43,309 bases of DNA from assembly GCA_002712285.1 (NCBI GenBank), contig PATC01000001.1, forward strand, positions 6,662 to 49,970. Direction: 5' to 3'. Under the pieces are notes generated by a model that saw only the letters and a list, made by a program, of their open reading frames with translations, made no database searches and was not told where the DNA came from. Shown here in pieces: positions 5,129 through 43,309 of the stretch. Within the stretch, counting starts at the first letter, position 1; each line of letters begins with the position of its first letter. The translations under genes and the position numbers were made by a program. The stretch is from Methanobacteriota archaeon. Its GTDB lineage: Archaea > Thermoplasmatota > Poseidoniia > Poseidoniales > Thalassarchaeaceae.

Positions 5129-6487
5129 ATGGCCGGTACCACCGGGTGGTCAGGATCGGTGGGGAACCAAGTCAGTGACGCGAAAAGCATAGTATCACTA
5201 GGCTTGAAAATCTCCGTCGATTCCCACGACGATATCCTAAAGCTCTCTAGCGAAGGGATGACTGAAGTCGAGCGTGAAAACAAAATCACCAGTATCGCAG
5301 AGATTTGTAAGTGTGATATTTTTGAATTCTCGACATGTAACAGAGTTCTGTTTGTGGGATTCAATACATCCTTGGAGAAACTTGAGAACGCTATACGAAA
5401 ACTCCACCCTACTGTCAAGAGTAAAATGATTTCACATGAAGGAATTGAAGCTTGGTCTAATTTAGTTACTATCGCAAGTGGCTTGGATTCTTTGGTTTTA
5501 GGAGAATTACAAGTCATGGGTCAATTCAGGAAAGCCATCAACTGGCATCGTTCGAGAAATTTAATCGGGCAATCAACGTCTGAAGAACTAGACACAGTAA
5601 TTAGCGCAAACAGGCGAGTAAGAAGAATCTTGAATTTAAATCACACTACACGATCAATGTTTACACTAGCATTAGACGAAGTTAATCGATTCGTAGAATC
5701 TCAGGGGAACAAGGATATCAAAATTGTAGTTCTAGGGTGTGGAGAAATGGGGTCTCAAGCGATATTCAGTCTACTTGACTTGGGTCTAGAAAATATATTG
5801 GTAGCGAATCGTTCAGTATCTAAAGCGAAAGAACGGTTAGGCAGTCGATTCCAAGAAGTAACTGCAGTATCAATGGAGGATTGGTTGGCGGGAACCCCAG
5901 TTGAAGTCGATCTAATAATCTCCATACTTAGACGCTCAAAACCGCTCTTCGACAGCGATTATCCACTGATAACCTCGACTCCATGCACCATATTGGATTT
6001 CTCTTGGCCTCCTTCAGTTGACCCTTCGGCAATTAACTCCTCACAGAATTTGTTGGGCATGAAGCATTGGATTAAAGCAGCCCATGGGTATAGTTCTGAT
6101 AAAAAACTCGATGAAATAAAGAAACAATCAATCTCGGTTATAGAGGAAGTTGTAGATGGTCACAAACGTCTGATTCGCCTTCGTTCGAGTTCAGAATGGA
6201 GGCGACAATTACACATGCAAATGAGGGATATAGTGGAACATTGGGATGCAGAATCTACAGGTGTCAGTCATGAACATGTTGAGAGAATTGTCAAAAATAT
6301 AGCCCACAAAATAGGAAAAACCCAACAAACCAGAATCGATGATGAAATCATAAGAAGTTGGATTACGGAAGACAGTAAAGGGATTCCAGAAACCTCATTG
6401 AGCCAACTACTAGGAATAGTGCAATCAATCGAATCAGTAGTCGAATTAGGAGCTAAAGGAAATGAGGATAAGAATCGGCACTCGTAA
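5129..6487 (+). CDS. hemA: Glutamyl-tRNA reductase
   Basis: Catalyses the first committed step of the C5 tetrapyrrole pathway: NADPH-dependent reduction of glutamyl-tRNA(Glu) to glutamate-1-semialdehyde. Diagnostic features are the catalytic cysteine in FSTCNRVLFVG (Cys70), GLDSLVLGELQVMGQ, and the nucleotide-binding VVLGCGEMGSQAIF. The C-terminal helical dimerisation part is present; 452 aa is slightly long for the family. About 20 residues precede the point where family alignments usually begin (SLGLKISV), so the true start may lie inside, for example the GTG at 5159; no clear ribosome-binding site decides this. It is the first gene of the haem cluster and overlaps hemCD by 26 bp. Confidence 0.95.
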   Translation: MAGTTGWSGSVGNQVSDAKSIVSLGLKISVDSHDDILKLSSEGMTEVERENKITSIAEICKCDIFEFSTCNRVLFVGFNTSLEKLENAIRKLHPTVKSKMISHEGIEAWSNLVTIASGLDSLVLGELQVMGQFRKAINWHRSRNLIGQSTSEELDTVISANRRVRRILNLNHTTRSMFTLALDEVNRFVESQGNKDIKIVVLGCGEMGSQAIFSLLDLGLENILVANRSVSKAKERLGSRFQEVTAVSMEDWLAGTPVEVDLIISILRRSKPLFDSDYPLITSTPCTILDFSWPPSVDPSAINSSQNLLGMKHWIKAAHGYSSDKKLDEIKKQSISVIEEVVDGHKRLIRLRSSSEWRRQLHMQMRDIVEHWDAESTGVSHEHVERIVKNIAHKIGKTQQTRIDDEIIRSWITEDSKGIPETSLSQLLGIVQSIESVVELGAKGNEDKNRHS

Positions 6488-8159
6488 GTCCCGCTTGGCC
6501 ATGCATCAAGCAGAGAAAGTTGCCGATAAATTACGTAATGCCGGCATCTCATCCACGATTATTGGAATGGAGTCTAGTGGCGACCGATCCTTGGGAGGTG
6601 ATTTAGCATCATTTCTAGGCCAGTTCACCCTCGGTATAGATGCAGCCTTGTTATCTGAAGAAGTAGACCTAGCAGTCCACTCTAGCAAAGACGTTCCAAT
6701 TGAGCCGAACGAAGGAGTTGAGACACTAGCATATCTAGAAAGAGCCCCCACAGCAGACATTCTCCTTACCCGTGATAATGATGAAGATACAGTAACATTG
6801 GGCGAAATTCTCAATGGTGACCAATCATTTGACCCACTGTTTGCATTATCCAAACTACCAGATAACGCGCGTGTTGGGTCTGCTTCCAGCCGTAGACAAT
6901 CATTTGCGGTGGGTATACGTCCAGATTTGATCCCTCTAGCGGTTAGGGGAACTGTTGAAACTCGAATCAAGAAATTGGTCTTAGGTTGGGTGGACGCCCT
7001 AATTTTGGCAGAAGCGGGCTTGTCTAGATTAAGCCAAGAAGGTGTATTTTCTAATGAAATATTATCTCTCAATGCTTACAGGTTAGATCGATCTAAATGG
7101 CCATGTGCCCCAGGACAGGGTAGTATTGTTGTTCATTCAAGGAGTTCCAGTGACTTGCAAAATATCCGCGATTTTCTAAACCATCCTCCAACTGAACTTA
7201 GTGTAACCAGCGAGCGCTCGATATTACGTAATTGGGGTGGTGGTTGTACACATCCTGCCGGTATTTGGGACAACGATGGATGGATATCTTCAGTTGTTGC
7301 TGAAGATGATTGGCGACACAATATTGCGAACGGTCTTCCAGTAGTATTACACCGATTTGAGGGGGATCTGAATAGTATTCCTAGTCAACCTCCGGTTTCC
7401 AAATCAGAGGTTAAGAAACCAATAAAAATCGAACATCCTCGTCTGATATCTACGGTGATATCCCCGCGATTTACAAAAGGGATCGCGGCATCCGGAACGT
7501 CAGTTTTACATTATCCAGTCATCGAAATTGCCTCTAATTCTAATTCATGGCCAAGAGACATAGGTTTAGACCAGAAACCCCGAAGTGAATGGCCATGGCT
7601 AGTGCTAACCTCACCTTCAGCAGCTCGTTGTGCAGTAGAATCAATACAATCCATTCCATATATAGGGCGTATCCCATGGCTTGCATTGGGTGAGGGCACT
7701 GCTATGGAGTGCTTTCAACTCGGCATGGCTGCTTCTGCATGTCCAATGGCGGCGGACGGTCAAGAAATGGTTGTGTGGATGGAAGAATGGTTTCCACAAC
7801 GACCAAACATTATCTTACCACGTTCCAATTTAGGTTCTACTGATTTGGCAGAACGCCTTTCTGAAATAGGATTTCAAGTAGAGACGTTTGTCGCTTATGA
7901 TAATCGTCCAAGAAAGTTGAGTACGGTTCCAGAGATGTATCCTAGTGATGTTCTACTTCTTGGTTCGGGATCAAGTGCTGAGACATGGATGAATGCTAAT
8001 CTCCCAATACCGGACAATGTTCTTTGTATTGGACAACGGACACTTGCAGTGGCGCAAGAATTGGGTTTTCAGCAACTTACAGCTCTTGCTGTGTTAGAAC
8101 TACCCACCGGTGATGCTATGATGGAATGGTGGAAGCACCACATAGAGGCGAGTTCATGA
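6462..8159 (+). CDS. hemCD: Fused hydroxymethylbilane synthase / uroporphyrinogen-III synthase
   Basis: Two successive pathway enzymes in one 565-aa chain. Residues 1 to about 300 are porphobilinogen deaminase: IGTRKSRLAMHQ, AVHSSKDVPIE, GSASSRRQSF, RGTVETRI, and the dipyrromethane-cofactor cysteine in GGGCTHPAG (Cys262). After a linker of about 25 residues, residues 320-565 resemble uroporphyrinogen-III synthase: WLVLTSPSAARC, LALGEGTAMEC, ILPRSNLGSTDLAERL, and a closing VLLLGSGSSAETW segment. HemD is always poorly conserved, so the second assignment rests on fold-typical motifs and position. The fusion would hand unstable hydroxymethylbilane straight to the cyclising enzyme. HemCD fusions are known in some bacteria such as Leptospira. 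The ATG lies inside hemA, and the TGA overlaps the hemB start (ATGA). Confidence 0.93.
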   Translation: MRIRIGTRKSRLAMHQAEKVADKLRNAGISSTIIGMESSGDRSLGGDLASFLGQFTLGIDAALLSEEVDLAVHSSKDVPIEPNEGVETLAYLERAPTADILLTRDNDEDTVTLGEILNGDQSFDPLFALSKLPDNARVGSASSRRQSFAVGIRPDLIPLAVRGTVETRIKKLVLGWVDALILAEAGLSRLSQEGVFSNEILSLNAYRLDRSKWPCAPGQGSIVVHSRSSSDLQNIRDFLNHPPTELSVTSERSILRNWGGGCTHPAGIWDNDGWISSVVAEDDWRHNIANGLPVVLHRFEGDLNSIPSQPPVSKSEVKKPIKIEHPRLISTVISPRFTKGIAASGTSVLHYPVIEIASNSNSWPRDIGLDQKPRSEWPWLVLTSPSAARCAVESIQSIPYIGRIPWLALGEGTAMECFQLGMAASACPMAADGQEMVVWMEEWFPQRPNIILPRSNLGSTDLAERLSEIGFQVETFVAYDNRPRKLSTVPEMYPSDVLLLGSGSSAETWMNANLPIPDNVLCIGQRTLAVAQELGFQQLTALAVLELPTGDAMMEWWKHHIEASS

Positions 8160-9127
8160 TTAGACCACGGATTAATCGTGCAACCTCCGGAAGGAGGCGA
8201 TTGATGAATGGGTCTCAATGGGCAGACCACCTAATTCAGCCACATTTTGTCGTATCAGGAAACGGAGTGGATGAACCCATTGATAGTTTAGTGGGGATTA
8301 ATCGACAATCTGTCGATGTTCTGATGGAAACCGTGGCTTCTGATATGGCTCTGGGTATATCTGCAGTGATGTTGTTTCCAGTAATTGACAAGTCTCACCG
8401 GGACGCAACCGGTACAATGGCATCTACTCCCGATAATCCTCTAATTCAGGCGACTCGTTCTTTGAGGGAAAAACATGGAGAATCACTAGTAATACTTGCA
8501 GATGTATGTCTTTGCACATACACTGATCATGGGAATTGCGGGATAATCGTTAACGGCCACATAGACAATGATTCGACTCTCCCTCACCTGACTCGACAAG
8601 CAATTGCTCTTGCAGACGCAGGAGTAGATTACGTTGCTCTGTCAGATATGATGGATCACCGAGTCGCTCATGTTCGTTCTGGTCTTGAGAAAGAAGGACA
8701 TACAACAACCGGCATACTCGCTTATTCGGCAAAATATGCCTCCTCATTTTATGGTCCATTCCAAGAAGCAGCGCATAGTGCTCCATCAAAATGGGGTCGC
8801 TCAAGTCACCAAATGGACTTCAGATCAACTGTTCGAGAAGCCCTGTTGGAGGTTGATATGGACATAGAAGAGGGTGCAGACATAGTCATGATCAAGCCCG
8901 CACTTCCCTACTTGGACATTATCAGTGCTGTTGCTGACAGATCTCTTAGACCTGTGGCTGCCTATCACGTAAGCGGAGAATATGCAATGCTGAATTCGGT
9001 AGCAAAAGACGATGACCATCTCGGCCGCATGGTGAACGAAACCCTTCACTCTATTCGTCGATCTGGTGCCGAACTAATTGTCACATACCATGCTCGCCGT
9101 GCGCTAGAACAGGGTTGGCTAACATGA
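8156..9127 (+). CDS. hemB: Porphobilinogen synthase (delta-aminolevulinate dehydratase)
   Basis: Condenses two 5-aminolevulinate molecules to porphobilinogen. The zinc site of the cysteine-type enzymes is complete in DVCLCTYTDHGNCG (Cys118, Cys120, Cys128). The two Schiff-base lysines are in ILAYSAKYASSFYG (Lys193) and ADIVMIKPALPYLD (Lys247). MLFPVIDKSHRDATG is also typical. The ORF track starts at 8126, but the in-frame ATG at 8156 forms an ATGA overlap with the hemCD stop and gives the usual family N-terminus (IRPRINRATSGRRR) and a normal length of 323 aa. It is therefore translationally coupled to hemCD. Confidence 0.96.
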   Translation: MIRPRINRATSGRRRLMNGSQWADHLIQPHFVVSGNGVDEPIDSLVGINRQSVDVLMETVASDMALGISAVMLFPVIDKSHRDATGTMASTPDNPLIQATRSLREKHGESLVILADVCLCTYTDHGNCGIIVNGHIDNDSTLPHLTRQAIALADAGVDYVALSDMMDHRVAHVRSGLEKEGHTTTGILAYSAKYASSFYGPFQEAAHSAPSKWGRSSHQMDFRSTVREALLEVDMDIEEGADIVMIKPALPYLDIISAVADRSLRPVAAYHVSGEYAMLNSVAKDDDHLGRMVNETLHSIRRSGAELIVTYHARRALEQGWLT

Positions 9128-10431
9128 AAGAGAGCCACCCCAGACCCCGTTCTTTTTCCCTACATGAGAAAGCCTGCAAACATCTCGTTGGCGGAGTCAA
9201 TTCTCCAGTTCGTGCATTCAAATCAGTCCACGGCTCTCCTGTCTATTTTGCTCAAGCAAAAGGTGCTTGTGTAACAGACGAAGATGGAAACGAGTATGTC
9301 GATTACATCCAATCATGGGGTCCGATGATTCATGGGCATGCGCCTGAAAATGTGTTAGATGCAATTCGTGAAACTATGGAGAAAGGTACATCATTTGGCG
9401 CTCCACATGTAGGTGAAATCGAGATGGCATTACGAATCAAAGCCCGCTTCCCAAATATTGACAAGGTTCGATTTGTAAGTTCTGGAACTGAGGCCGTGAT
9501 GTCTGCGGTCCGCTTAGCACGAGGGGTAACTGGTCGAGATGGGATTCTAAAATTTGAAGGATGTTACCATGGCCATGTCGACTCACTCTTAGCAAAGGCT
9601 GGGAGCGGAATTGCGACACTCGGAATCGCAGGTAGTCCAGGTATCCCCCAAGGCACGGTAGGTGATACACTAATTCTACAACTCAATGATGAAGAAATGT
9701 TAGAACATGCGTTTAGCATGCATGGCAAAACTCTTGCTTGTGTAATCATTGAACCCTTGCCAGCAAACAATGGGCTGTTACCACAGCGTCCAGAATTCCT
9801 GCAAAGAATTCGAGATTTATGTGATGAGCACCAAGTTCTACTTATCTTCGATGAAGTAATCACAGGTTTTCGTTTCCAACAAGGTGGCGTCTCGTCAGTC
9901 CTTGACATACAGCCAGATATTACCACTCTAGGGAAAGCAATCGGGGGAGGGTTACCTGTGGGTGCATATGGTGCGAGAGATGAAATCATGTCCCAGCTAG
10001 CACCAGAAGGTCCAGTATACCAAGCTGGCACATTATCAGGAAATCCACTCGCAATGGCAGCTGGAAGTGCCGCGATCGATTTGTTAGACAACTCATGTTA
10101 TGACAAACTCGAGGCTCTTGGAATTTATTTGGAAGATAGCATAAATCAAATTCTATCAAAACATAATTTTCCCTTTAATCTCGTTCGAGTCGGGAGCATG
10201 TTCTGGATGTCTCCTCCTTCAGATGATTTGATCCGTAGCGCTGCAGATATCCCTTCAGAATCGGGGTCTCGCTATGCAGACCTACATTATGGTCTACTAG
10301 CTCGTGGACATATGCTGGCTCCGTCCGCCTACGAGATTGGATTCCTATCTACAGCCCACACGAGAGAAAATATCGATGATTTGTGTAGGGCTCTCGATTC
10401 GACTTTGATTGAAATTGAGGTAAAGACATGA
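9124..10431 (+). CDS. hemL: Glutamate-1-semialdehyde 2,1-aminomutase
   Basis: PLP enzyme converting glutamate-1-semialdehyde to 5-aminolevulinate, the second step of the C5 route. Signatures: GGVNSPVRAFKSV, FVSSGTEAVMSAVRLARG, FEGCYHGHVDSLL, the cofactor aspartate in LLIFDEVITGFR, and the PLP lysine in TTLGKAIGGGLPVGAYG (Lys271). The ORF track starts at a TTG (9115); the ATG at 9124 overlaps the hemB stop as ATGA and is preferred, giving 435 aa, normal for the family. It lies after hemB, so gene order does not follow reaction order. Confidence 0.97.
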   Translation: MKESHPRPRSFSLHEKACKHLVGGVNSPVRAFKSVHGSPVYFAQAKGACVTDEDGNEYVDYIQSWGPMIHGHAPENVLDAIRETMEKGTSFGAPHVGEIEMALRIKARFPNIDKVRFVSSGTEAVMSAVRLARGVTGRDGILKFEGCYHGHVDSLLAKAGSGIATLGIAGSPGIPQGTVGDTLILQLNDEEMLEHAFSMHGKTLACVIIEPLPANNGLLPQRPEFLQRIRDLCDEHQVLLIFDEVITGFRFQQGGVSSVLDIQPDITTLGKAIGGGLPVGAYGARDEIMSQLAPEGPVYQAGTLSGNPLAMAAGSAAIDLLDNSCYDKLEALGIYLEDSINQILSKHNFPFNLVRVGSMFWMSPPSDDLIRSAADIPSESGSRYADLHYGLLARGHMLAPSAYEIGFLSTAHTRENIDDLCRALDSTLIEIEVKT

Positions 10432-11462
10432 ACGGAAAAGATCGGATAAAATCTGCTCTTAGGCGGGAACCGGTAGACCGGCCTCCAGTTTGGTTCATGA
10501 GGCAGGCTGGTCGCCACCTTCCAGAGTATCGAGCAATTTCCAAAGAAACGTCCTTCATGGAGAGATGTATGGACTTAGATCTTTGTCTCGAAGTAACTAC
10601 GCAACCTCTAACTCGTTATCCGCAAATTGATGCTGCGATTGTGTTTAGCGATATTCTTACCCCTCTACCCGGACTTGGTTACGAAGTAGAGTTTGGTGGT
10701 GGAATTCGGATAGACGCTTTCGAATGGGACGACTTAGACAACTGGGGGAGTTTCAATTCCCGCGCTCATGCACCTTGGGCCGCAAACGCTCTTCGCGCCT
10801 TGGAAGATCACGTTGAACGGGATGTTGCTCGCTTGGGTTTCGTGGGCTGTCCTTGGACTGTGGCAATGTATCTCATCGCGGGTGGAACGGGAGACAAGGA
10901 TTTCCATCAAACAAGGGCGTTAATCCATTCAAACCCCAAATCAGCAAAGGAACTCTTGGATAAACTTGCAGTTGTTGTGGGTGATTTATTGGCAGATCAG
11001 GCCAATCACGGTAAAGCAGATGCAGTGCAAATGTTCGATACATGGGCTGGTATGTTGAGCAATCAAGATTACCGAGATATCGTTTTACCAGCAACCAAGA
11101 AAGCAATTGATGTATTTCGGAAGAAGTGCGATAAATTTGTTCCATTAATTCATTACGCTCGAGGTTCAGGCCATCTTCACAATGAAATGCGTACGCTTGA
11201 CATTCAGGCTATGTCTCTAGATTGGAGAGATAACCTTGCAGAAAATCGTCGTCTTTACGGGGAAAAATTTTGCTTTCAAGGGAATTTAGACCCTGCTAGG
11301 ATGCATGGTTCTGTTGAAGCGGCAAAGTCCGCCGCACGTCGTGTGCTCGCTGAGGCTGGAGATTCTCCGGGCCATATCTTCAATCTCGGCCATGGATTCG
11401 CCCCAGGGGCAAAAATCGACTGTGTCGAGGCAGTTCTACGGGTCGTGGAGGGCAAGCGATGA
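10428..11462 (+). CDS. hemE: Uroporphyrinogen decarboxylase
   Basis: Decarboxylates the four acetate side chains of uroporphyrinogen III to give coproporphyrinogen III. The N-terminal hallmark PPVWFMRQAGRHLPEYR is intact, including the substrate-binding Arg residues, and the essential aspartate sits in VFSDILTPLPGLG. Further conserved stretches are GFVGCPWTVAMYL and GHIFNLGHGFAPG. The 344-aa length is normal. Start and stop overlap the neighbours (ATGA on both sides). HemE commits uroporphyrinogen to the coproporphyrin branch, which the archaeal sirohaem (Ahb) route does not use. Confidence 0.97.
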   Translation: MNGKDRIKSALRREPVDRPPVWFMRQAGRHLPEYRAISKETSFMERCMDLDLCLEVTTQPLTRYPQIDAAIVFSDILTPLPGLGYEVEFGGGIRIDAFEWDDLDNWGSFNSRAHAPWAANALRALEDHVERDVARLGFVGCPWTVAMYLIAGGTGDKDFHQTRALIHSNPKSAKELLDKLAVVVGDLLADQANHGKADAVQMFDTWAGMLSNQDYRDIVLPATKKAIDVFRKKCDKFVPLIHYARGSGHLHNEMRTLDIQAMSLDWRDNLAENRRLYGEKFCFQGNLDPARMHGSVEAAKSAARRVLAEAGDSPGHIFNLGHGFAPGAKIDCVEAVLRVVEGKR

Positions 11463-12364
11463 AGAAGCGCATTGCTGACTTCATGCATCGTATGCAGGAT
11501 GACATTACCAATACGCTGCATGCCTTGGATCAGGGTGAAATCAGAGAAGACATCTGGACTCGCAAAGAGGGTGGTGGTGGACGTAGTCGTGTTCTAACAG
11601 GAGGCCGTCTCTTCGAAAAAGCTGGTGTAAATGTCAGCGTGGTCCATGGGGAATTAAGCCCAGAAGCGGCCAAAAACATGGGTGGTGGACAAACACTCGG
11701 GGCCGAAGATCTTGAGTTCTACGCTACAGGACTTAGCCTTGTTCTCCATCCGCACAATCCGATGGCCCCTACTGTTCATGCTAATTATCGATATTTTGAA
11801 CGTGGAGATGGAGTAAAAGATGGAGCATGGTGGTTCGGGGGAGGTTCTGACCTAACTCCATCATACTTGTTTGAAGATGATGTAATTCACTTCCACCAGG
11901 TTCTTCGAGATGTGTGTGACGAGCATGCAATTGGAGATTATTCAAGATTCAAACAATGGTGTGACGAGTATTTCCATATTCACCATAGAAATGAGGCACG
12001 TGGCGTCGGGGGTGTATTTTTCGATGATTTACGTGATGAGAACAAAGAATCATGTTTTAGTTTCGTTAAGGACATGGCAGCAGCATTTTTACCATCCTAT
12101 CTTCCAATATTACAACGCCGTTCCAACTTACCTTATGATGAGAATAACAAACGTTGGCAGGGTATACGGCGGGGCCGCTACGTCGAATTCAACTTAGTTC
12201 ATGACCGGGGCACAACTTTCGGATTACGTACTGGGGGTCGGATTGAGAGTATCTTGATGTCCTTACCTGAAACAGCTCGCTGGGAATACTGTCATGAGGT
12301 AGTGAAGGGATCAAAAGAGGAAGAGATGTTGAATATTCTTCGTAGGCCGCGTGAATGGGTTTGA
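11459..12364 (+). CDS. hemF: Oxygen-dependent coproporphyrinogen-III oxidase
   Basis: Aerobic oxidative decarboxylation of coproporphyrinogen III to protoporphyrinogen IX, using O2 and no cofactor. Conserved blocks: PTVHANYRYFE, WWFGGGSDLTPSYLFEDD, FHIHHRNEARGVGGVFFDDL and RYVEFNLVHDRGTTFGL. At 301 aa it matches bacterial HemF. No radical-SAM HemN or HemW is present in the window. The requirement for molecular oxygen marks the host as aerobic. It is coupled to hemE by an ATGA overlap and followed after 6 bp by the protoporphyrinogen oxidase gene. Confidence 0.97.
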   Translation: MKKRIADFMHRMQDDITNTLHALDQGEIREDIWTRKEGGGGRSRVLTGGRLFEKAGVNVSVVHGELSPEAAKNMGGGQTLGAEDLEFYATGLSLVLHPHNPMAPTVHANYRYFERGDGVKDGAWWFGGGSDLTPSYLFEDDVIHFHQVLRDVCDEHAIGDYSRFKQWCDEYFHIHHRNEARGVGGVFFDDLRDENKESCFSFVKDMAAAFLPSYLPILQRRSNLPYDENNKRWQGIRRGRYVEFNLVHDRGTTFGLRTGGRIESILMSLPETARWEYCHEVVKGSKEEEMLNILRRPREWV

Positions 12365-12370
12365 AGAGAA

Positions 12371-13651
12371 ATGGCGCATTCAATTGACTCCTGGGTTCGC
12401 CATGGCGTGGAAATGAGAAAGCCTCTGTTAATTCATCCAAATCTTTCGGATGCACAACGTATTATTGTCATTGGAGGGGGATTATCTGGACTTACATTCG
12501 CGCTTCGTTGTGCTGAAAAATTCCCTGAAAGAACGATTGATCTTGTTGAATCGAGTCCTCGGTTAGGAGGTGTAATTGAGACTTGGTCAGAGGATGAATG
12601 GAGATGTGATGTGTCTGTAAATGCATCAAGGCCTCATCCGGCTGTTTGGCGTCTAATACATGATTTGGGGTTGGATGATGAATGGCACGTCACCAACGAT
12701 TATGCCAGTAATCGATGGGTTCATTTCAACGGACAGCGGGTCAAAGTTGGACCTGCATTGGCAATGAAAATAGGTATATTTCGAACAATTCGTGGAGTCC
12801 GTAATGCACGAAAGGGCGGCCGTCCTGTTTCAGAATTAATACCTAATACCTCTATCGCAGATGCGTTAACGCTTGGAATAGTGAATGACATATCAATCAA
12901 CGTTGATGCTGATACCCTTTTTCCGGGATTGACACGCTTTGGACATGAGCCTCCAGTCAGTCGTTCTAAACTCCGCCGTCTGGTCAACGATTCATATCCA
13001 TCCAAAGCACCTCCCCGTCGTTCGATGGCTTCACTAGACGGTGGTATGGAACAACTGATCGATTCCATAGTTGCTCGTTTAGAGGAATCTCCCAAAGTGA
13101 AAATCCATCTTAATTCAAGGATGCGTAATCCAGAAGAGGCCGCCAGCAATTTCCAAGTTCCAATCCATAGTGTTGTATGGGCCACGCCAAACTTTCCAGA
13201 TTTGGGTTTCAAAAAAGAGAGAACTAAGATTCGAATATTTGCATGGGGTGAGCTAGCAAAGTCATCAATAGCCCCAATAGGATATGGTATGCTAATCCCC
13301 ACCGGTGGGCCTGTAAGTGGCATTCTCCATGAATCTGACATTCATCATGGTAGCAGAGCCCCGGAGGGTCAACGACTCTTCCGTATTATGGTTCCAGAAA
13401 ACCGCTGGAATGGTGAATTAAATCAAATTCATGCTCATATGAATGACCTTCATGGTCAAAAGAATCCCACGATATTCAAGGAGATTGCAGAAAGAGAAAT
13501 CCCTCGGTATCTTCCCGGCCATCTTCAAAAATTAAATGATCTCCAAGTTCCATGCACATGGATTGGTTGGGGTGCTTCTGGACCATCGATAACCCATGTG
13601 GTGGACGAGGTAGAGAGAATTGTTGAACGAATGGCAGATTATCGAATTTAA
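12371..13651 (+). CDS. hemY: Protoporphyrinogen oxidase, HemY/PPOX type
   Basis: FAD-dependent six-electron oxidation of protoporphyrinogen IX to protoporphyrin IX. The N-terminal dinucleotide fold is RIIVIGGGLSGLTFALRC followed by the acidic strand end and SSPRLGGVIETW. The segment PAVWRLIHDLGLDDEW aligns with the PPOX region after the FAD motif, and the C-terminus (WGASGPSITHVVDEVERIVERM) is the usual FAD-closing helix. At 426 aa it is a little short and divergent for HemY, so another amine-oxidase-like role is possible by sequence alone, but its place between hemF and hemH makes PPOX by far the best reading. The ATG at 12413 is an alternative start. The stop overlaps the convergent hemH stop. 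Confidence 0.88.
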   Translation: MAHSIDSWVRHGVEMRKPLLIHPNLSDAQRIIVIGGGLSGLTFALRCAEKFPERTIDLVESSPRLGGVIETWSEDEWRCDVSVNASRPHPAVWRLIHDLGLDDEWHVTNDYASNRWVHFNGQRVKVGPALAMKIGIFRTIRGVRNARKGGRPVSELIPNTSIADALTLGIVNDISINVDADTLFPGLTRFGHEPPVSRSKLRRLVNDSYPSKAPPRRSMASLDGGMEQLIDSIVARLEESPKVKIHLNSRMRNPEEAASNFQVPIHSVVWATPNFPDLGFKKERTKIRIFAWGELAKSSIAPIGYGMLIPTGGPVSGILHESDIHHGSRAPEGQRLFRIMVPENRWNGELNQIHAHMNDLHGQKNPTIFKEIAEREIPRYLPGHLQKLNDLQVPCTWIGWGASGPSITHVVDEVERIVERMADYRI

Positions 13652-14670
13652 TTTTTGATATCCAAATCAAACGCCTGTAGAATAATTCTCTCTAGGCCCT
13701 TAATCCAATCTTCTCTGTCATTCAAACAAGGGACGACCTTCACATTATGACCACCTGCTGCCACAAATTCTTCTTTAACCTCAATCTCTAATTCTTCGAG
13801 TGTTTCAAGCCCATCTGCAACAAAAGCTGGTGATACTATAACTAAATCCTTAATTCCTTTTTCTGCGAGTTCTTCCACTGTTCTGCTTGTGGCAGGGCTT
13901 AGCCACTTAGCCGGTCCAAGACGACTTTGGTAACTATGCGACCATCGTGATTCTGGAAGCTTCAGAGACCCTGCCACCGCCATCGACGTCATCATACATT
14001 GATGAGCATAACATTTCTTATTTGCAAGATCTTTAACTTTGCAGCATCCATCATTTAGACAATGTGATCCGGTTTTGTCGATTCGACGGATGTGCGAAAG
14101 CGGAAGACCATGGTATGAAAATAAAAGATGATTTGACTCATTTATATGTGGGCGTATCGAGTCAACTAATGGCTCAATGAACCCTGGGTCGATAGGAAAA
14201 TCTCCCAATTCCAGTATCCGAGGGCTCCAATTTATTTTCTTCAGGTCACGATATGTTTGTTTTAATGCCGTTTCTGTAGTAGCTTGGGCATGATGAGGAA
14301 ATAGAGGAGCAATCAACAGGTCAGTAACACCTCTATCTCTTAACCGCTCAAGAGCTCCACGAATTGTCGGATTTCCATATCTCATACCAACTTCAAATTC
14401 GATTTGAGAATCTTGGTGCAGAGCCTCACAAATTCGTTGGGTATAAACTCGAAGTGGGGCTCCTTCATTCATCCATATTGAAGCGTATTTAGGAGCGACT
14501 TTCCTTGGTCTTGTGTTGAGAATAATACCTCTTACTAACAAGTGACGGATTGGAGCCGGAATATCAATTACATCCGGATCTAGGAGGAACTCTTTCAGAT
14601 ATCGACGCACTGCAGGCGTTGTAGGCTCATCTGGTGTGCCGACATTTATCAGAACAACCCCCCGAGTCAT
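13648..14670 (-). CDS. hemH: Ferrochelatase (protoporphyrin type)
   Basis: Inserts Fe2+ into protoporphyrin IX. Motifs: VVLINVGTPDEPT, EGAPLRVYTQ, the metal-site histidine in LLFSYHGLPLSHIRR, and SPAFVADGLETLEELEIE near the C-terminus. The ORF track extends to 14739, but the ATG at 14670 is preceded by a purine-rich GGGGTGG and yields the normal N-terminus, 340 aa. Right after the catalytic loop is a dense cysteine segment (HCLNDGCCKVKDLANKKC, then CYAHQC). Some bacterial ferrochelatases carry an internal [2Fe-2S] cluster, so this may bind one; that is inference. The gene is transcribed towards hemY, with stop codons overlapping. Confidence 0.96.
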   Translation of the reverse strand: MTRGVVLINVGTPDEPTTPAVRRYLKEFLLDPDVIDIPAPIRHLLVRGIILNTRPRKVAPKYASIWMNEGAPLRVYTQRICEALHQDSQIEFEVGMRYGNPTIRGALERLRDRGVTDLLIAPLFPHHAQATTETALKQTYRDLKKINWSPRILELGDFPIDPGFIEPLVDSIRPHINESNHLLFSYHGLPLSHIRRIDKTGSHCLNDGCCKVKDLANKKCYAHQCMMTSMAVAGSLKLPESRWSHSYQSRLGPAKWLSPATSRTVEELAEKGIKDLVIVSPAFVADGLETLEELEIEVKEEFVAAGGHNVKVVPCLNDREDWIKGLERIILQAFDLDIKN

Positions 14671-14757
14671 GCCACCCCGAAAATAACTCAACCTATGAGT
14701 GTCTGCTTCTATCTTATCATCCAAACTCTTGATACACATTCCCCTGAATAGCGCTCT

Positions 14758-34701: not shown

Positions 34702-35748
34702 TCAACTACGGCGCCTATCTCTGAATGATCCATTGGAACCCCCACTTCGGTGATTCCTTCTACCTCGATTTCCAGAGAAGCGTTTACTGTCTCGTCGGTC
34801 ACCTAATCGGCGAACTCCTTCTGAGTTGCCTCTTCGAGGTGTCTTATTGGCTGAATCATTACCTCCTGAACCGTCTTTGTTTCGTCCACATCGATTACAT
34901 TCAGTCCTGAAGGCGAAGTTACTGTTACCGCACTGCTTGCAGGTCCAATCGCCTTCCCGCGCCTCGCTCTGATTACTATCTTTGCGATCTCCACCTCTAC
35001 GGTCACCCCATGATGAACGTCGTTGGTCTCTACGATCTCCACCCCTACGGTCTCCGCCTCTACGGTCTCCGCCTCTACGGTCTCCGCCTCTACGGTCTCC
35101 GCCTCTACGGTCTCCGCCTCTACGGTCTCCACCTCTACGGTCTCCACCTCTACGGTCACCCCATGATGAGCGTCCTTGGCTTCTACGATCGCCTCCACTT
35201 GGTTTTGGTTCATCGCAATTTGATCGATTACATACGTTCTTACTTGCGAAATTGTGATTGTTGCACTTTGGACACATCCAGTCACCTGGCTTCATCCTTG
35301 AATTCTGGTCGTCTATGCGGCGATCACCCCATGAACGATTACGTTCGCCACGTTCGCCACCTCTGCGGTCACCACCTCTACGGTCGCCCCATGACGAGCG
35401 TCTTCTGTCTCTACGGTCGCCACCCCTGCGATCGTTACGTCGATCAAATTGTCTATCGCCCCGATTATCACGTGAAAATCGAGAACGTCCGTTGTCTCGT
35501 CGCTCACGGCGTTCCCGCGGGGCTAGTTCTAGAGTTGAACCAATGAGGGTTTCAGCTTCGAGATGAGGGTCTAGGATTACGAGATTAACCACTGGATCAT
35601 CAATAGGACCAATCACACTATCAACGCGACCAACCGTAGTTCCAGTACTATCTCGGAGTCGCTGGCCTAAACGGGGTACGCCTCCATCGAAACTCGCCAG
35701 AACGGACCCTTCGTGGGTCACACGCAGAACCGTGGCTGTGTAGGACAT
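34702..35748 (-). CDS. Gar1-like H/ACA RNP protein with RGG repeats and two RanBP2-type zinc fingers
   Basis: Residues 1 to about 78 resemble archaeal Gar1 (GSVLASFDGGVPRLGQRL, VGRVDSVIGPIDDPVVNLVI), the beta-barrel that binds Cbf5 in H/ACA pseudouridylation RNPs. The rest is low-complexity RGG/RRGGD sequence interrupted by two zinc fingers: GDWMCPKCNNHNFASKNVC (about 155) and GDWTCKQCGNSNFAFRTEC (about 270), both fitting W-x-C-x2-C-x3-N-x6-C of RanBP2 fingers, which bind single-stranded RNA in FUS/ZRANB2-type proteins. Ordinary archaeal Gar1 is about 80-100 aa without such tails. Eight tandem DRRGG copies sit between the fingers. It starts 3 bp after the stop of the secreted-protein gene. 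Confidence 0.85.
   Translation of the reverse strand: MSYTATVLRVTHEGSVLASFDGGVPRLGQRLRDSTGTTVGRVDSVIGPIDDPVVNLVILDPHLEAETLIGSTLELAPRERRERRDNGRSRFSRDNRGDRQFDRRNDRRGGDRRDRRRSSWGDRRGGDRRGGERGERNRSWGDRRIDDQNSRMKPGDWMCPKCNNHNFASKNVCNRSNCDEPKPSGGDRRSQGRSSWGDRRGGDRRGGDRRGGDRRGGDRRGGDRRGGDRRGGDRRGGDRRDQRRSSWGDRRGGDRKDSNQSEAREGDWTCKQCGNSNFAFRTECNRCGRNKDGSGGNDSANKTPRRGNSEGVRRLGDRRDSKRFSGNRGRRNHRSGGSNGSFRDRRRS
35030..35162 (-). repeat. 15-bp tandem repeat encoding DRRGG
   Basis: Eight or more near-identical 15-bp units (plus strand tacggtctccgcctc) with a few third-position changes encode DRRGG between the two zinc fingers. Near-identity at DNA level points to recent slippage expansion, so copy number may vary between strains. 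Confidence 0.9.
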
Positions 35749-39829: not shown

Positions 39830-40777
39830 ATGGGGCGACTAAAGAACACGTCAATTGATGTGGTAGTTCCACTGTACAATGATCAAGAAGTTGTTCGCCC
39901 GCTTTGCTCAGCAGTCTTCTCTGAACTCGAATTTAGATTCAAATCCGTACACTTGATTCTTGTTGATGATGGTTCTTCAGATTCAACATTCCAGATTGCT
40001 GAAGAAATCGCGAAACAAGAAAATAGAATCCGATTGGTTCGCCTTGCAGGGAATTTCGGACAACACCAAGCAATATCTGCAGGTTTAACCTTCACAGATT
40101 CAGATATAGTTGCAGTTATGGATTCAGATCTTCAAGATCGACCTGAAGATATTATTCGGATAACTGAGCAGATGTTTGAACAGGATGTCCCCATAGCCAT
40201 TGCTAGGAGTCGAGTTCGCTCTTCCAATATCATCAAAAGGTTCTCTAGTCGTCTATTTTCCATTGTTTCTAACCTATTAGTTCCATTCAAAGTAGATCCA
40301 GGATTAGGTGCGTTCAGGGTCATGGACCGTAGCATTGTGAATCAACTAAATTCAGTAAAGGAAAGCACTGGAACTCCTTTTTCCCTCCTTTATTCTCTTA
40401 AGATTCCATTTGCTATGGTAGATGTGGAACGAAGTAATAGAGTCGCTGGAATGACTGGCTATACTTTCTTCAAATCGTTGAAATTGGCGATGAATAGAAT
40501 ATTGACTTATTCATTTACGCCTCTTCGTTTGTCAATCACTATAGGAGTATTTTCAGGATTATTCTCCCTAGGAATTGGACTCTACACTATTCTAAATTTC
40601 GTAATTGTAGATGAGGTAGCACCAGGTTGGACATCAATTGCTTTCCTAACCAGTTTCTTCGCTGGCCTAAATCTCTTGTTCCTCGGAATCATTGGAGAGT
40701 ATATTGGCCGAATTTACCTCGAATCGAGAGGTGTTCCGAGGTACGTAATCCGATCATCTTCTGATGAAACGGAATAA
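39830..40777 (+). CDS. Family 2 glycosyltransferase with C-terminal membrane helices (GtrB/ArnC-like)
   Basis: The N-terminal GT-A domain holds VVVPLYNDQEVVRPLC, ILVDDGSSDST and the metal-binding AVMDSDLQDRPEDI. Two transmembrane helices close the protein (LSITIGVFSGLFSLGIGLYTIL and FLTSFFAGLNLLFLGIIGEYIG), and the end IYLESRGVPRYVIR is typical. Such enzymes move a sugar from a nucleotide to a polyprenyl-phosphate carrier on the cytoplasmic face, feeding N-glycosylation or surface polysaccharide. Length 315 aa. Its last 89 bp overlap the wbqC gene on the other strand. Confidence 0.93.
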   Translation: MGRLKNTSIDVVVPLYNDQEVVRPLCSAVFSELEFRFKSVHLILVDDGSSDSTFQIAEEIAKQENRIRLVRLAGNFGQHQAISAGLTFTDSDIVAVMDSDLQDRPEDIIRITEQMFEQDVPIAIARSRVRSSNIIKRFSSRLFSIVSNLLVPFKVDPGLGAFRVMDRSIVNQLNSVKESTGTPFSLLYSLKIPFAMVDVERSNRVAGMTGYTFFKSLKLAMNRILTYSFTPLRLSITIGVFSGLFSLGIGLYTILNFVIVDEVAPGWTSIAFLTSFFAGLNLLFLGIIGEYIGRIYLESRGVPRYVIRSSSDETE

Positions 40778-41447
40778 CATTGGTCGTATCTAATGCACTT
40801 TCTCCGAGCATTATCATTGTGTCGATAATTGACATTTCATCGCCGGATTCAGGCCCTATCTGTGCATACTTTGGAAACGGCCCATATTCCATCCACAACA
40901 TTTCGATTCCACTATCATTGAACTCATCGCCAATGTAATTCATTGCAGCAGGCCCTGAAAGATATTCATCCGCTCCGATCGATTTACAGATGCCTATTAA
41001 TCTCTCAACTCGACCACCTTCGATTCCAAGTTTTGATGATTGAATGAATCGAGTATTTATGCCCAGGAATGAACATATGTCTTGGATTAAACCCTGATTG
41101 AATTCAGAGAGAGTATTAATCTCTTTATTTTTGAACCATGGTTCAATTATGTTCATCACGGCCTCAAAATGTGGTTGTTTGGAGTAAACTCGCCGAATTG
41201 TTTCAAGATGATTTGTTCTCCATTCTCCTTCGGGCAATAGAACCTCTTCGATAGTGCGATTACGATTTTTCCCGACAGGTATTGTCAACCAAATTGGTCC
41301 CTGGGGGGTCATAATTCGGTTCCTACTTCTCCAATCTCTCTTCGTGTATTGCACATCGTCATAGAAAACGAAAACATCAACCTCTGAAATCAATTGAAAA
41401 TAACCTCTCCATGGAATGTAGTTTGATTGTGATATCGCACACCTCAT
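40689..41447 (-). CDS. WbqC-family protein
   Basis: The N-terminus MRCAISQSNYIPWRGYFQLI and the following VDVFVFYDDVQYTKRDWRSRN are the hallmark of the WbqC-like family, found in O-antigen and other glycan loci; the reaction is not established. Further family features: WLTIPVGKNRNRTIEEV, HLETIRRVYSKQPHFE and EYLSGPAAMNYI. The track begins at 41459; the second ATG (41447) begins the family domain directly. The promoter region holds a TATA-like sequence flanked by two TTAGG-type palindromes, so expression is probably controlled by a DNA-binding repressor. Tail-to-tail with the glycosyltransferase, suggesting a shared glycan theme. Confidence 0.88.
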   Translation of the reverse strand: MRCAISQSNYIPWRGYFQLISEVDVFVFYDDVQYTKRDWRSRNRIMTPQGPIWLTIPVGKNRNRTIEEVLLPEGEWRTNHLETIRRVYSKQPHFEAVMNIIEPWFKNKEINTLSEFNQGLIQDICSFLGINTRFIQSSKLGIEGGRVERLIGICKSIGADEYLSGPAAMNYIGDEFNDSGIEMLWMEYGPFPKYAQIGPESGDEMSIIDTMIMLGESALDTTNVIPFHQKMIGLRTSEHLSIRGKFGQYTLQ

Positions 41448-41463
41448 GGAATTACACAACCAG

Positions 41464-41479
41464 TTTAGGCTTGCCTAAA
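41464..41479. promoter_or_regulatory. Operator-like palindrome 1: TTTAGGCTTGCCTAAA
   Basis: A perfect 7+2+7 inverted repeat, 17-32 nt before the wbqC ATG and over the predicted transcription start. The TTAGG half-site resembles that of DtxR/IdeR-type metal-dependent repressors; regulator identity is inferred. Confidence 0.6.
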
Positions 41480-41497
41480 ACGTCCGAAATGACAGCC

Positions 41498-41506
41498 GTA
41501 TATGAT
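41498..41506 (-). promoter_or_regulatory. Putative TATA box for wbqC
   Basis: Minus-strand ATCATATAC predicts a transcription start near 41475, which falls inside palindrome 1. The box sits between palindromes 1 and 2. Confidence 0.5.
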
Positions 41507-41517
41507 ACTTATTCCCC

Positions 41518-41533
41518 TTTAGGCGTGCCCAAA
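41518..41533. promoter_or_regulatory. Operator-like palindrome 2 (imperfect): TTTAGGCGTGCCCAAA
   Basis: Same layout as palindrome 1 with one arm mismatch (CCCAA for CCTAA), 54 bp away, upstream of the wbqC TATA box and just downstream of the 126-aa gene stop. Confidence 0.45.
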
Positions 41534-41554
41534 AAAAACGGCTGGATATTCTAC

Positions 41555-41935
41555 CTATTCCGATTCTTCATCCGTTTTAATTTCTTGAAAAAACACCTGA
41601 ATTAACAAGAAAACAAAGATTCCTGCAAATGGAGCACTAGTGTAAGTTATCCAACCCGCATCAATCGAATCCAATACACTGGTTTGATCTCCAAAGAGCC
41701 ACCCCTGAGTGGAAGTAATTGCGGTGAATCTCAACCCAATGAACACTCCGAAAACAGTACTGAGATTCGAAAATCTCGAATCTTGATAGATATTTTGGTA
41801 AATAACAATCGAAATACCAATTGCTAACAAGTGCCAAATTCCGATGTTAGAAAGGAGGCCGTCTAGGATATTGTTAGCGATTATCGCTGAAGTTAGAATC
41901 AAAATGAATGAATGAATCATCTCTTTCATTCTCAT
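41555..41935 (-). CDS. Small polytopic membrane protein, 126 aa
   Basis: About four hydrophobic segments: MIHSFILILTSAIIANNILD, IGIWHLLAIGISIVIY, TVFGVFIGLRFTAI and APFAGIFVFLLIQVFF, then an acidic tail (EIKTDEESE). No family recognised. It precedes wbqC by about 107 bp on the same strand and is divergent from the right-edge surface protein, with palindrome 3 in the shared region. Confidence 0.65.
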   Translation of the reverse strand: MRMKEMIHSFILILTSAIIANNILDGLLSNIGIWHLLAIGISIVIYQNIYQDSRFSNLSTVFGVFIGLRFTAITSTQGWLFGDQTSVLDSIDAGWITYTSAPFAGIFVFLLIQVFFQEIKTDEESE

Positions 41936-42002
41936 GTAACTGCCCTCTTTGAACTCGAGTTTCTCAGGTATTCGGCATTCTTTTCTTGTTATTGAACTTG
42001 GT

Positions 42003-42016
42003 TTAGGTAATCCTAA
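42003..42016. promoter_or_regulatory. Operator-like palindrome 3: TTAGGTAATCCTAA
   Basis: TTAGG-N4-CCTAA, the same arms and spacing as palindrome 1, 27-40 nt before the ATG of the right-edge surface protein and in the region divergent to the 126-aa membrane protein. Confidence 0.5.
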
Positions 42017-42042
42017 TCTATTGGTGTATCTCGGAGATAATC

Positions 42043-43309
42043 ATGGGGAATCCAGTGAGGATCAGTTCGGCTGCTGTTGTTCTAATCCTACTGATGCCGT
42101 TTATGTTCTCCTTTGGTGGAGAAATTCTCTACGAGGCCAATCTTTCCCAGAATACTAGTGGTCGCGACCATTGCGAAGACATAGGAGACGAAGCTAGTTG
42201 CAACTCTGACAACCGATGCGAATGGGATGAGGAGGACGACCCCTCCGATTCAGATTACCCTGGTGAATGTGAAGACACAGATTCGCATGAAGATGAAAAC
42301 TCCAGTGATTCAAGCTCGAGTGATTCAAGTTCGAGTGATTCAAGTTCGAGTGATTCAAGTTCCAGCGATTCTAGTTCCTCAAGTGGTAGTGGGAATGGAA
42401 ATGGCAACTCTGGTTCAGGCAATGGTGGAAGTGGACAGGCTCCAACGGATACCGATGGGGATGGCATAGACGATGCAGCGGATGATGATGATGATGGAGA
42501 TGGGGTAAAGGATATCGATGATGATTGCCCACTTGATTCGAATGAAACAGTCGACACTGATGGAGATGGACTTTGTAATAATTCAGATTTTGATGATGAT
42601 GGTGATGGTGTAAATGATGATCAAGATGCCTTCCCCCTTGATCCTTCAGAGCAATCGAATTTTGATGGTGATGCGCGAGGAGATAATCTCGACGAAGATG
42701 ATGACAATGATGGTGTTCCCGACACAATGGATGATTTCCCATTGAATGCTTCTGAGCAATTTGATACTGATTCAGATGGTATTGGTGATAACACAGATGA
42801 TGACGATGATAACGATGGCGTGAAGGATGACCAAGATGCATTCCGATACGATCCTTGTGCTGATACTGATTCTGATATGGATGGTAAGCCAGATGTAATC
42901 CGAGCCGGATGCTCAACTAATTTGGTTGAAGACATGGATGACGATAATGACGGCATATCTGATGCCTCAGACGATCAGCTCGATATTGATCAAAATGCGG
43001 CACCTGATTTTGATCGCGATGGTATTCCCGATATCGAGGATGATGATGATGATAACGATGGGACACCTGACGTATCCGATGCTTTCCCCTTTAATCAGTC
43101 AGAAAGAAGTAATTTTGATGGAGATTTCATGGGTGACTTCTACGATCCAGATGACGATAATGATGGCATAAACGATGTTGACGACATGTTCCCATTCGAC
43201 GCTAGTGAATGGAAGGACAGCGATCGCGATGGAATTGGCGACAACGCCGACTTGGATGATGATAACGACATGATTCCTGATGATGAGGATGATTTCCCCT
43301 TAGATTCTG
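42043..43309 (+). CDS. Surface protein with Ser/Asp and thrombospondin type 3-like calcium repeats, partial (runs off right edge)
   Basis: The frame is open from ATG 42043 (after GGAGATAATC, a usable Shine-Dalgarno) to the window end, 422 codons; the ORF track lists only shadows of it. A signal peptide comes first (VRISSAAVVLILLMPFMFSF). A short Cys-rich PSI-like segment follows (CEDIGDEASCNSDNRCEW), then a Ser/Asp stalk (SSSSD repeats), a Gly/Asn linker, and at least eight calcium loops of the DTDGDGIDD / DDDNDGVPD type spaced by DAFPLDPSE-like turns. The layout fits an extended, calcium-stiffened cell-surface or cell-cell contact protein. The C-terminal part that would show its anchor lies beyond the window. 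Confidence 0.88.
   Translation, partial: MGNPVRISSAAVVLILLMPFMFSFGGEILYEANLSQNTSGRDHCEDIGDEASCNSDNRCEWDEEDDPSDSDYPGECEDTDSHEDENSSDSSSSDSSSSDSSSSDSSSSDSSSSSGSGNGNGNSGSGNGGSGQAPTDTDGDGIDDAADDDDDGDGVKDIDDDCPLDSNETVDTDGDGLCNNSDFDDDGDGVNDDQDAFPLDPSEQSNFDGDARGDNLDEDDDNDGVPDTMDDFPLNASEQFDTDSDGIGDNTDDDDDNDGVKDDQDAFRYDPCADTDSDMDGKPDVIRAGCSTNLVEDMDDDNDGISDASDDQLDIDQNAAPDFDRDGIPDIEDDDDDNDGTPDVSDAFPFNQSERSNFDGDFMGDFYDPDDDNDGINDVDDMFPFDASEWKDSDRDGIGDNADLDDDNDMIPDDEDDFPLDS
42303..42377 (+). repeat. 15-bp tandem repeat encoding SDSSS
   Basis: Five copies of agtgattcaagttcg-like units, nearly identical at DNA level, encode the Ser/Asp stalk of the right-edge surface protein. Length is likely to vary between strains by slippage. 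Confidence 0.9.

Follow-up and report, generated by a model that had tools for sequence, protein, structure and literature searches.

Introduction

In archaea, DtxR homologues, described in Thermoplasma, in haloarchaea and as MDR1 in Archaeoglobus, control iron genes from promoters built around a TATA box, and MDR1 of Archaeoglobus has several operators in its own promoter. A study of this family likewise cites Thermoplasma IdeR and a haloarchaeal DtxR network as archaeal DtxR-family iron regulators (PMC10317159). In regard to the operators themselves, a structural study of IdeR found a site holding a single dimer, and proposed the 14-bp consensus TTAGGNNNNCCTAA in replacement of the 19-bp box (PMC8464063). 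The 14-mer TTAGGTTAACCTAA is bound by DtxR as a single dimer, with a Kd of 5.5 nM in the presence of Co2+ (PMC13379313). Among possible targets of such regulators, FEA1 and the phytotransferrin ISIP2a are iron-uptake proteins of algae, where the Fea1 family is induced by low iron (PMC7676907).

The operator and the regulator type discussed below are thus already known, while a regulon of this kind in Marine Group II archaea, with Fea1 as its core and with surface targets, appears to be undescribed; our literature search found no paper that treats DtxR or Fea1 regulation in this group. These archaea are uncultured and numerous in ocean surface waters, which are often short of iron.

Results

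Palindromes between the genes

The window, i.e. the whole analyzed stretch of 43,309 nucleotides, contains three palindromes of the form TTAGG-N4-CCTAA. The proximal operator of wbqC is the 16-bp palindrome TTTAGGCTTGCCTAAA at 41464..41479, with the exact core TTAGGCTTGCCTAA at 41465-41478, located about 17 bp before the wbqC start codon (ATG at 41445-41447, minus strand). The distal one, TTTAGGCGTGCCCAAA at 41518..41533, has a core with one mismatch (TTAGGCGTGCCCAA, 41519-41532) and lies 54 bp from the first, with a TATA-like element, AGTATCATATAC, between the two on the minus strand (41498..41509). The third site, the exact TTAGGTAATCCTAA at 42003..42016, is single and precedes by 26 bp the ATG of a gene for a surface protein with thrombospondin type 3 (TSP3) repeats. 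This gene (42043..43309, plus strand; 555 aa) runs past the end of the window (L016:2205-3872). The wbqC gene (40689..41447, minus strand) belongs to the WbqC-like family (PF08889, Pfam E 4.7e-69) and is a putative surface-glycan gene. Upstream of it, on the same strand, a 126-aa ORF (41555..41935, minus strand) encodes a probable membrane protein without a match in Pfam. The first two operators occupy the intergenic space between the wbqC start and the stop of this ORF, and the third operator is intergenic as well.

The original prediction, which reported two exact copies and one near-copy, all intergenic, around the wbqC TATA box and before the surface gene, was therewith confirmed, apart from a start that was off by one. 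Its statement that the window holds no other copy is also correct, as none with 0 or 1 mismatch was found besides these three. In 300 dinucleotide shuffles of the window, exact copies occurred with a mean of 0.033, in agreement with the approximately 0.04 per 43 kb given previously, and two or more copies were obtained in 0/300; for the 595-bp interval 41448-42042, the expected number of exact copies is 0.0005. The half-sites TTAGG and CCTAA, which are inverted and 4 bp apart, had been described as DtxR/IdeR-like; TTAGGNNNNCCTAA has been published as the IdeR/DtxR consensus for a single dimer. The full 19-bp box for two dimers, TTAGGTTAGSCTAACCTAA, is absent, and no further half-site follows CCTAA at any of the window sites.

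Two other parts of the window were inspected by eye. A long run of genes for tetrapyrrole (haem) biosynthesis, resembling HemA, HemC/D, HemB, HemL, HemE, HemF, protoporphyrinogen oxidase and ferrochelatase, extends over 5129-14739, without the motif nearby. An ORF at 34702-35748 holds numerous repeats of GGDRR together with zinc-finger-like CxxC segments, the latter of RanBP2 type.

Motif across the host genome and its relatives

The host assembly comprises 1.70 Mb in 51 contigs and is 74% complete, and the list of regulon members is partial for that reason. Genome-wide, there are five exact copies of the motif, all of them upstream of genes: one before wbqC, one before the TSP3 gene, a pair before a lipoprotein gene and one before a ferredoxin gene. 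Four of the five are gathered within 5.3 kb on the contig of the window. The pair, whose members are 55 bp apart, is situated past the right edge of the window, directly before the lipoprotein gene, the product of which contains a Fea1 domain ('low iron-inducible periplasmic protein', PF07692; 92 bits against a curated cut-off of 25, E 5e-26). The next gene encodes a binding protein that matches both Phosphonate-bd and Transferrin. The fifth copy, on contig C35, precedes a 4Fe-4S ferredoxin gene and reads TTAGGTTAACCTAA, identical to the 14-mer known to be bound by DtxR. Of the one-mismatch copies in other parts of the genome, nine were inspected, and every one was inside a gene.

As a separate observation, the gene after Fea1 (L016:8494-9882; L054:3707-5812) specifies a tandem PhnD-like protein whose match to Transferrin (PF00405) is significant; judged by its sequence, it is possibly an archaeal iron-binding transferrin-like protein.

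Fea1 is present in 43/118 genomes of the family, and the motif was found at most about 150 bp upstream of it in 30/30 fetched family loci. When these loci were joined with loci from public genomes into a set of 59 distinct Fea1 promoters, a site with no more than one mismatch was present in 57, an exact site in 53 and two or more sites in 46, compared to 2/59 for the reversed-pattern control. In the second family of the order, exact sites occur in 13 of the 14 Fea1 loci, a set partly overlapping that of the public genomes, and the last locus has a site with one mismatch. Among the sites of relatives, the four spacer bases vary freely, and an outer T-A pair, which lies outside the search pattern, is 93% conserved, giving the extended consensus TTTAGGNNNNCCTAAA.

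Chance palindromes, or a repeat without regulatory role, could be invoked from the raw genome count, because five copies are only about twice the base-composition expectation of approximately two; raw genome counts alone are not striking, and the case for operators is made by position, pairing and conservation. Such an origin is extremely improbable and is already contradicted by promoter conservation, given the intergenic position of the sites, their pairing, the conservation at Fea1 in two families and the conserved outer pair that was not selected for.

Paired sites fall into spacing classes of 19-21, 33-34, 43-45, 53-55 and 59 bp. Steps of about 10 bp are suggestive of helical phasing, but the independent spacing classes are too few for it to be claimed. 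The spacing of 54-55 bp seen at wbqC also occurs in the Fea1 promoters of the host genome and of two relatives. In 31/38 promoters with the wider pairs, a TATA-like element separates the two sites, against 5.2 expected. Most Fea1 site pairs surround the TATA box or sit just before it, and the sites lie over the core promoter or the start site of iron genes. In relatives, sites additionally precede genes for PhnD/transferrin-like proteins accompanied by an ABC ATPase and a permease, and a ferritin gene, while Peripla_BP_2, FecCD, ABC ATPase and flavodoxin genes follow downstream of Fea1. The genome-wide scan that had been suggested as a check thus places the motif before iron genes in the host genome and in its relatives.

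Ferredoxin was considered as a conserved member of the regulon and rejected, as only 4/30 orthologous promoters have a site, which is therefore lineage-specific. In the host, this site is single and located just upstream of a TATA-like element. It is here that activation instead of repression, of which IdeR is capable, might be expected at some sites, since ferredoxin should rise with iron and its site has this upstream position; we nevertheless regard activation as unlikely, because the sites of Fea1 and wbqC lie on both sides of the TATA box and probable start, where repression usually takes place.

Two further observations concern the distribution of the motif. An exact copy is found about 30 bp before a 489-aa ORF in another genome (G087:C62:2393; L108:1501), making this ORF a possible further member of the regulon. 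Relatives of Fea1 were also found in marine Acidimicrobiales, Microthrix and Chloroflexi (L183-L198), and in five of the Acidimicrobiales copies, palindromes resembling DtxR/IdeR sites, with at most one mismatch, lie just before the reading frame; therefore, the Fea1-DtxR pairing seems to cross domains.

Promoters of the surface genes

In the wbqC promoter, the two operators are 54 bp apart with ATCATATA between them, an arrangement that resembles the Fea1 promoters of the genus, and the TATA-like element of wbqC aligns with ATATCATATA of the Fea1 promoters. The alignment with the Fea1 promoter of one genome (G038) covers about 78 bp and extends past the operators; with the operators masked, similarity between wbqC and Fea1 promoters still exceeded all 300 shuffles. 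As this similarity continues past the operators, wbqC looks to have captured a copy of a Fea1 promoter, and it probably joined the regulon by acquiring such a copy. The TSP3 promoter was examined as another copy of this kind and rejected, as it shows no similarity outside the operator.

At good similarity, wbqC is found in three genomes only, two of which are other genomes of the same genus. One of these orthologues (G077) has no site directly before the gene, the other is truncated by the end of its contig, and the control of wbqC is without orthologue support. The TSP3 gene cluster was found in only two genomes, those of the host and G077, and in the latter a site precedes the TSP3 orthologue at about the same distance (L052:4910), while a further site precedes rmlA/rmlB.

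It could be argued that genuine operators exist only at Fea1 and ferredoxin, and that the copies at wbqC and TSP3 are incidental or drive, for example, the 126-aa ORF. The missing site at the G077 wbqC orthologue agrees with this, as do the single TSP3 site and the restriction of its gene set to two genomes. On the other hand, the wbqC pair has the 54-bp spacing and the TATA element of a Fea1 promoter, with similarity reaching outside the operators, the TSP3 site is kept in G077, and the interval has the very low chance expectation given above; we regard this alternative as quite unlikely. The originally proposed control of surface genes draws support from where the sites lie, from the similarity of the wbqC and Fea1 promoters and from the TSP3 and rmlA/rmlB sites of G077, but finds none in the wbqC orthologues.

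Candidate regulator

The proposed search for a DtxR-family regulator yielded two proteins encoded in the host genome, on contigs C35 and C10. The C35 homologue (C35:17700; L017:2701-3135) has 144 aa and a Fe_dep_repress domain, and aligns with DtxR, with Met10, Cys102, Glu105 and His106 of the primary site all present. Among the orthologues checked, one short, incomplete row excepted, these four metal-ligand positions are invariant, as are, in the probable recognition helix, Ser39, Ala41, Ser42, Glu45 and Met46. According to the roles described for primary-site residues, the sulfur ligands Met and Cys favour iron (PMC10317159). At the ancillary site, His79 is absent, the aligned residue being Gln or Glu by eye, so this site may differ. 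A C35 orthologue is encoded in 108/118 family genomes and in 14/14 of the high-quality ones, and in many of them its gene lies about 4-5 kb from the ferredoxin gene. No site was found within 250 bp upstream of the regulator gene in the loci checked for autoregulation.

Most C35 orthologues have 214-221 aa, with a C-terminal extension. The C-terminal SH3-like domain is missing from the C35 protein, which has the same 144 aa in its two closest relatives (G038 and G058); in these three, a C-terminal part of about 70 residues has been lost.

The C10 homologue is MntR-like by sequence: its best PDB matches are MntR, its metal motif is of the Glu type (EGIEH), and Ser-x-Pro-Thr is retained in the recognition helix, just as it occurs in DtxR. 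These features would suit a manganese (MntR-type) regulon read by this protein. However, the targets are iron genes, namely Fea1, ferredoxin and ferritin, along with FecCD, Peripla_BP_2 and flavodoxin from the cluster that follows downstream; the Met/Cys ligands of the C35 protein are of the iron type, and its gene is close to the ferredoxin gene. We hold a manganese regulon to be very unlikely, and the C35 homologue is the likeliest protein to read the sites. Among the genes next to the inspected sites, no manganese transporter was recognised. Of the two metals initially suggested, iron is favoured over manganese by the target genes and by the C35 ligands.

Discussion

The sites, their positions and pairing, their conservation at iron genes, the ligands of the regulator and the promoter similarity, all directly visible in the sequence, are best explained if the palindromes are operators of an iron-activated DtxR/IdeR-type repressor controlling iron uptake and surface genes, which we consider very probable. 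What we infer is that the sites are bound, that iron is the effector, that the promoters are repressed and not activated, and that the targets have a glycan or surface function.

In the mechanism that we propose, each operator of 14-16 bp would take one dimer of the iron-activated repressor. With ample Fe2+, dimers would occupy one or two operators abutting the BRE/TATA box and would cover the probable start site, thus blocking assembly of the archaeal pre-initiation complex. Operators that reach the BRE/TATA box as well as the probable start site fit repression. Once iron drops, the promoters would fire, and the Fea1 lipoprotein and the PhnD/transferrin-like binding protein would be made, together with, as relatives suggest, ABC transporter parts and flavodoxin. 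In the host species, WbqC, acting on surface glycan, and the TSP3 surface protein would be produced as well. We lean slightly towards the wider proposal that an iron-starvation regulon of Marine Group II couples a scavenger of the phytotransferrin family to surface remodelling, and that wbqC entered it by capture of a duplicated Fea1 promoter.

A readable operator would supply a list of iron-starvation genes for Marine Group II, among them the Fea1 genes related to algal phytotransferrins, and this reading predicts that genes for surface glycan and for surface proteins respond to iron. Broad support would at the same time be gained for the 14-bp single-dimer site, put forward on the basis of a single bacterial promoter, as a natural operator.

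Compared to the IdeR/DtxR systems of Actinobacteria, the sites described here share the 14-bp single-dimer consensus and the iron-homeostasis targets (PMC8464063), and the candidate regulator is likewise a DtxR-family protein with a Met/Cys/Glu/His primary metal site. In contrast to Actinobacteria, the 19-bp double-dimer box is replaced here by separate sites of 14-16 bp, often paired at distances of 19-59 bp, which flank an archaeal TATA box or lie upstream of it. With the archaeal DtxR-family systems, the Marine Group II regulon would have in common the control of iron genes by a DtxR homologue at TATA-box promoters, which is here predicted. It differs from them in its host group, in being centred on Fea1 and in including surface-glycan and surface-protein genes, and it differs from MDR1 of Archaeoglobus in that no site lies near the regulator gene in the orthologues checked. 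Finally, the Fea1 domain (PF07692) is shared with algal FEA1/ISIP2a, whereas here it belongs to an archaeal lipoprotein, encoded beside PhnD/transferrin-like proteins and ABC transporters and preceded by a predicted DtxR-type operator.
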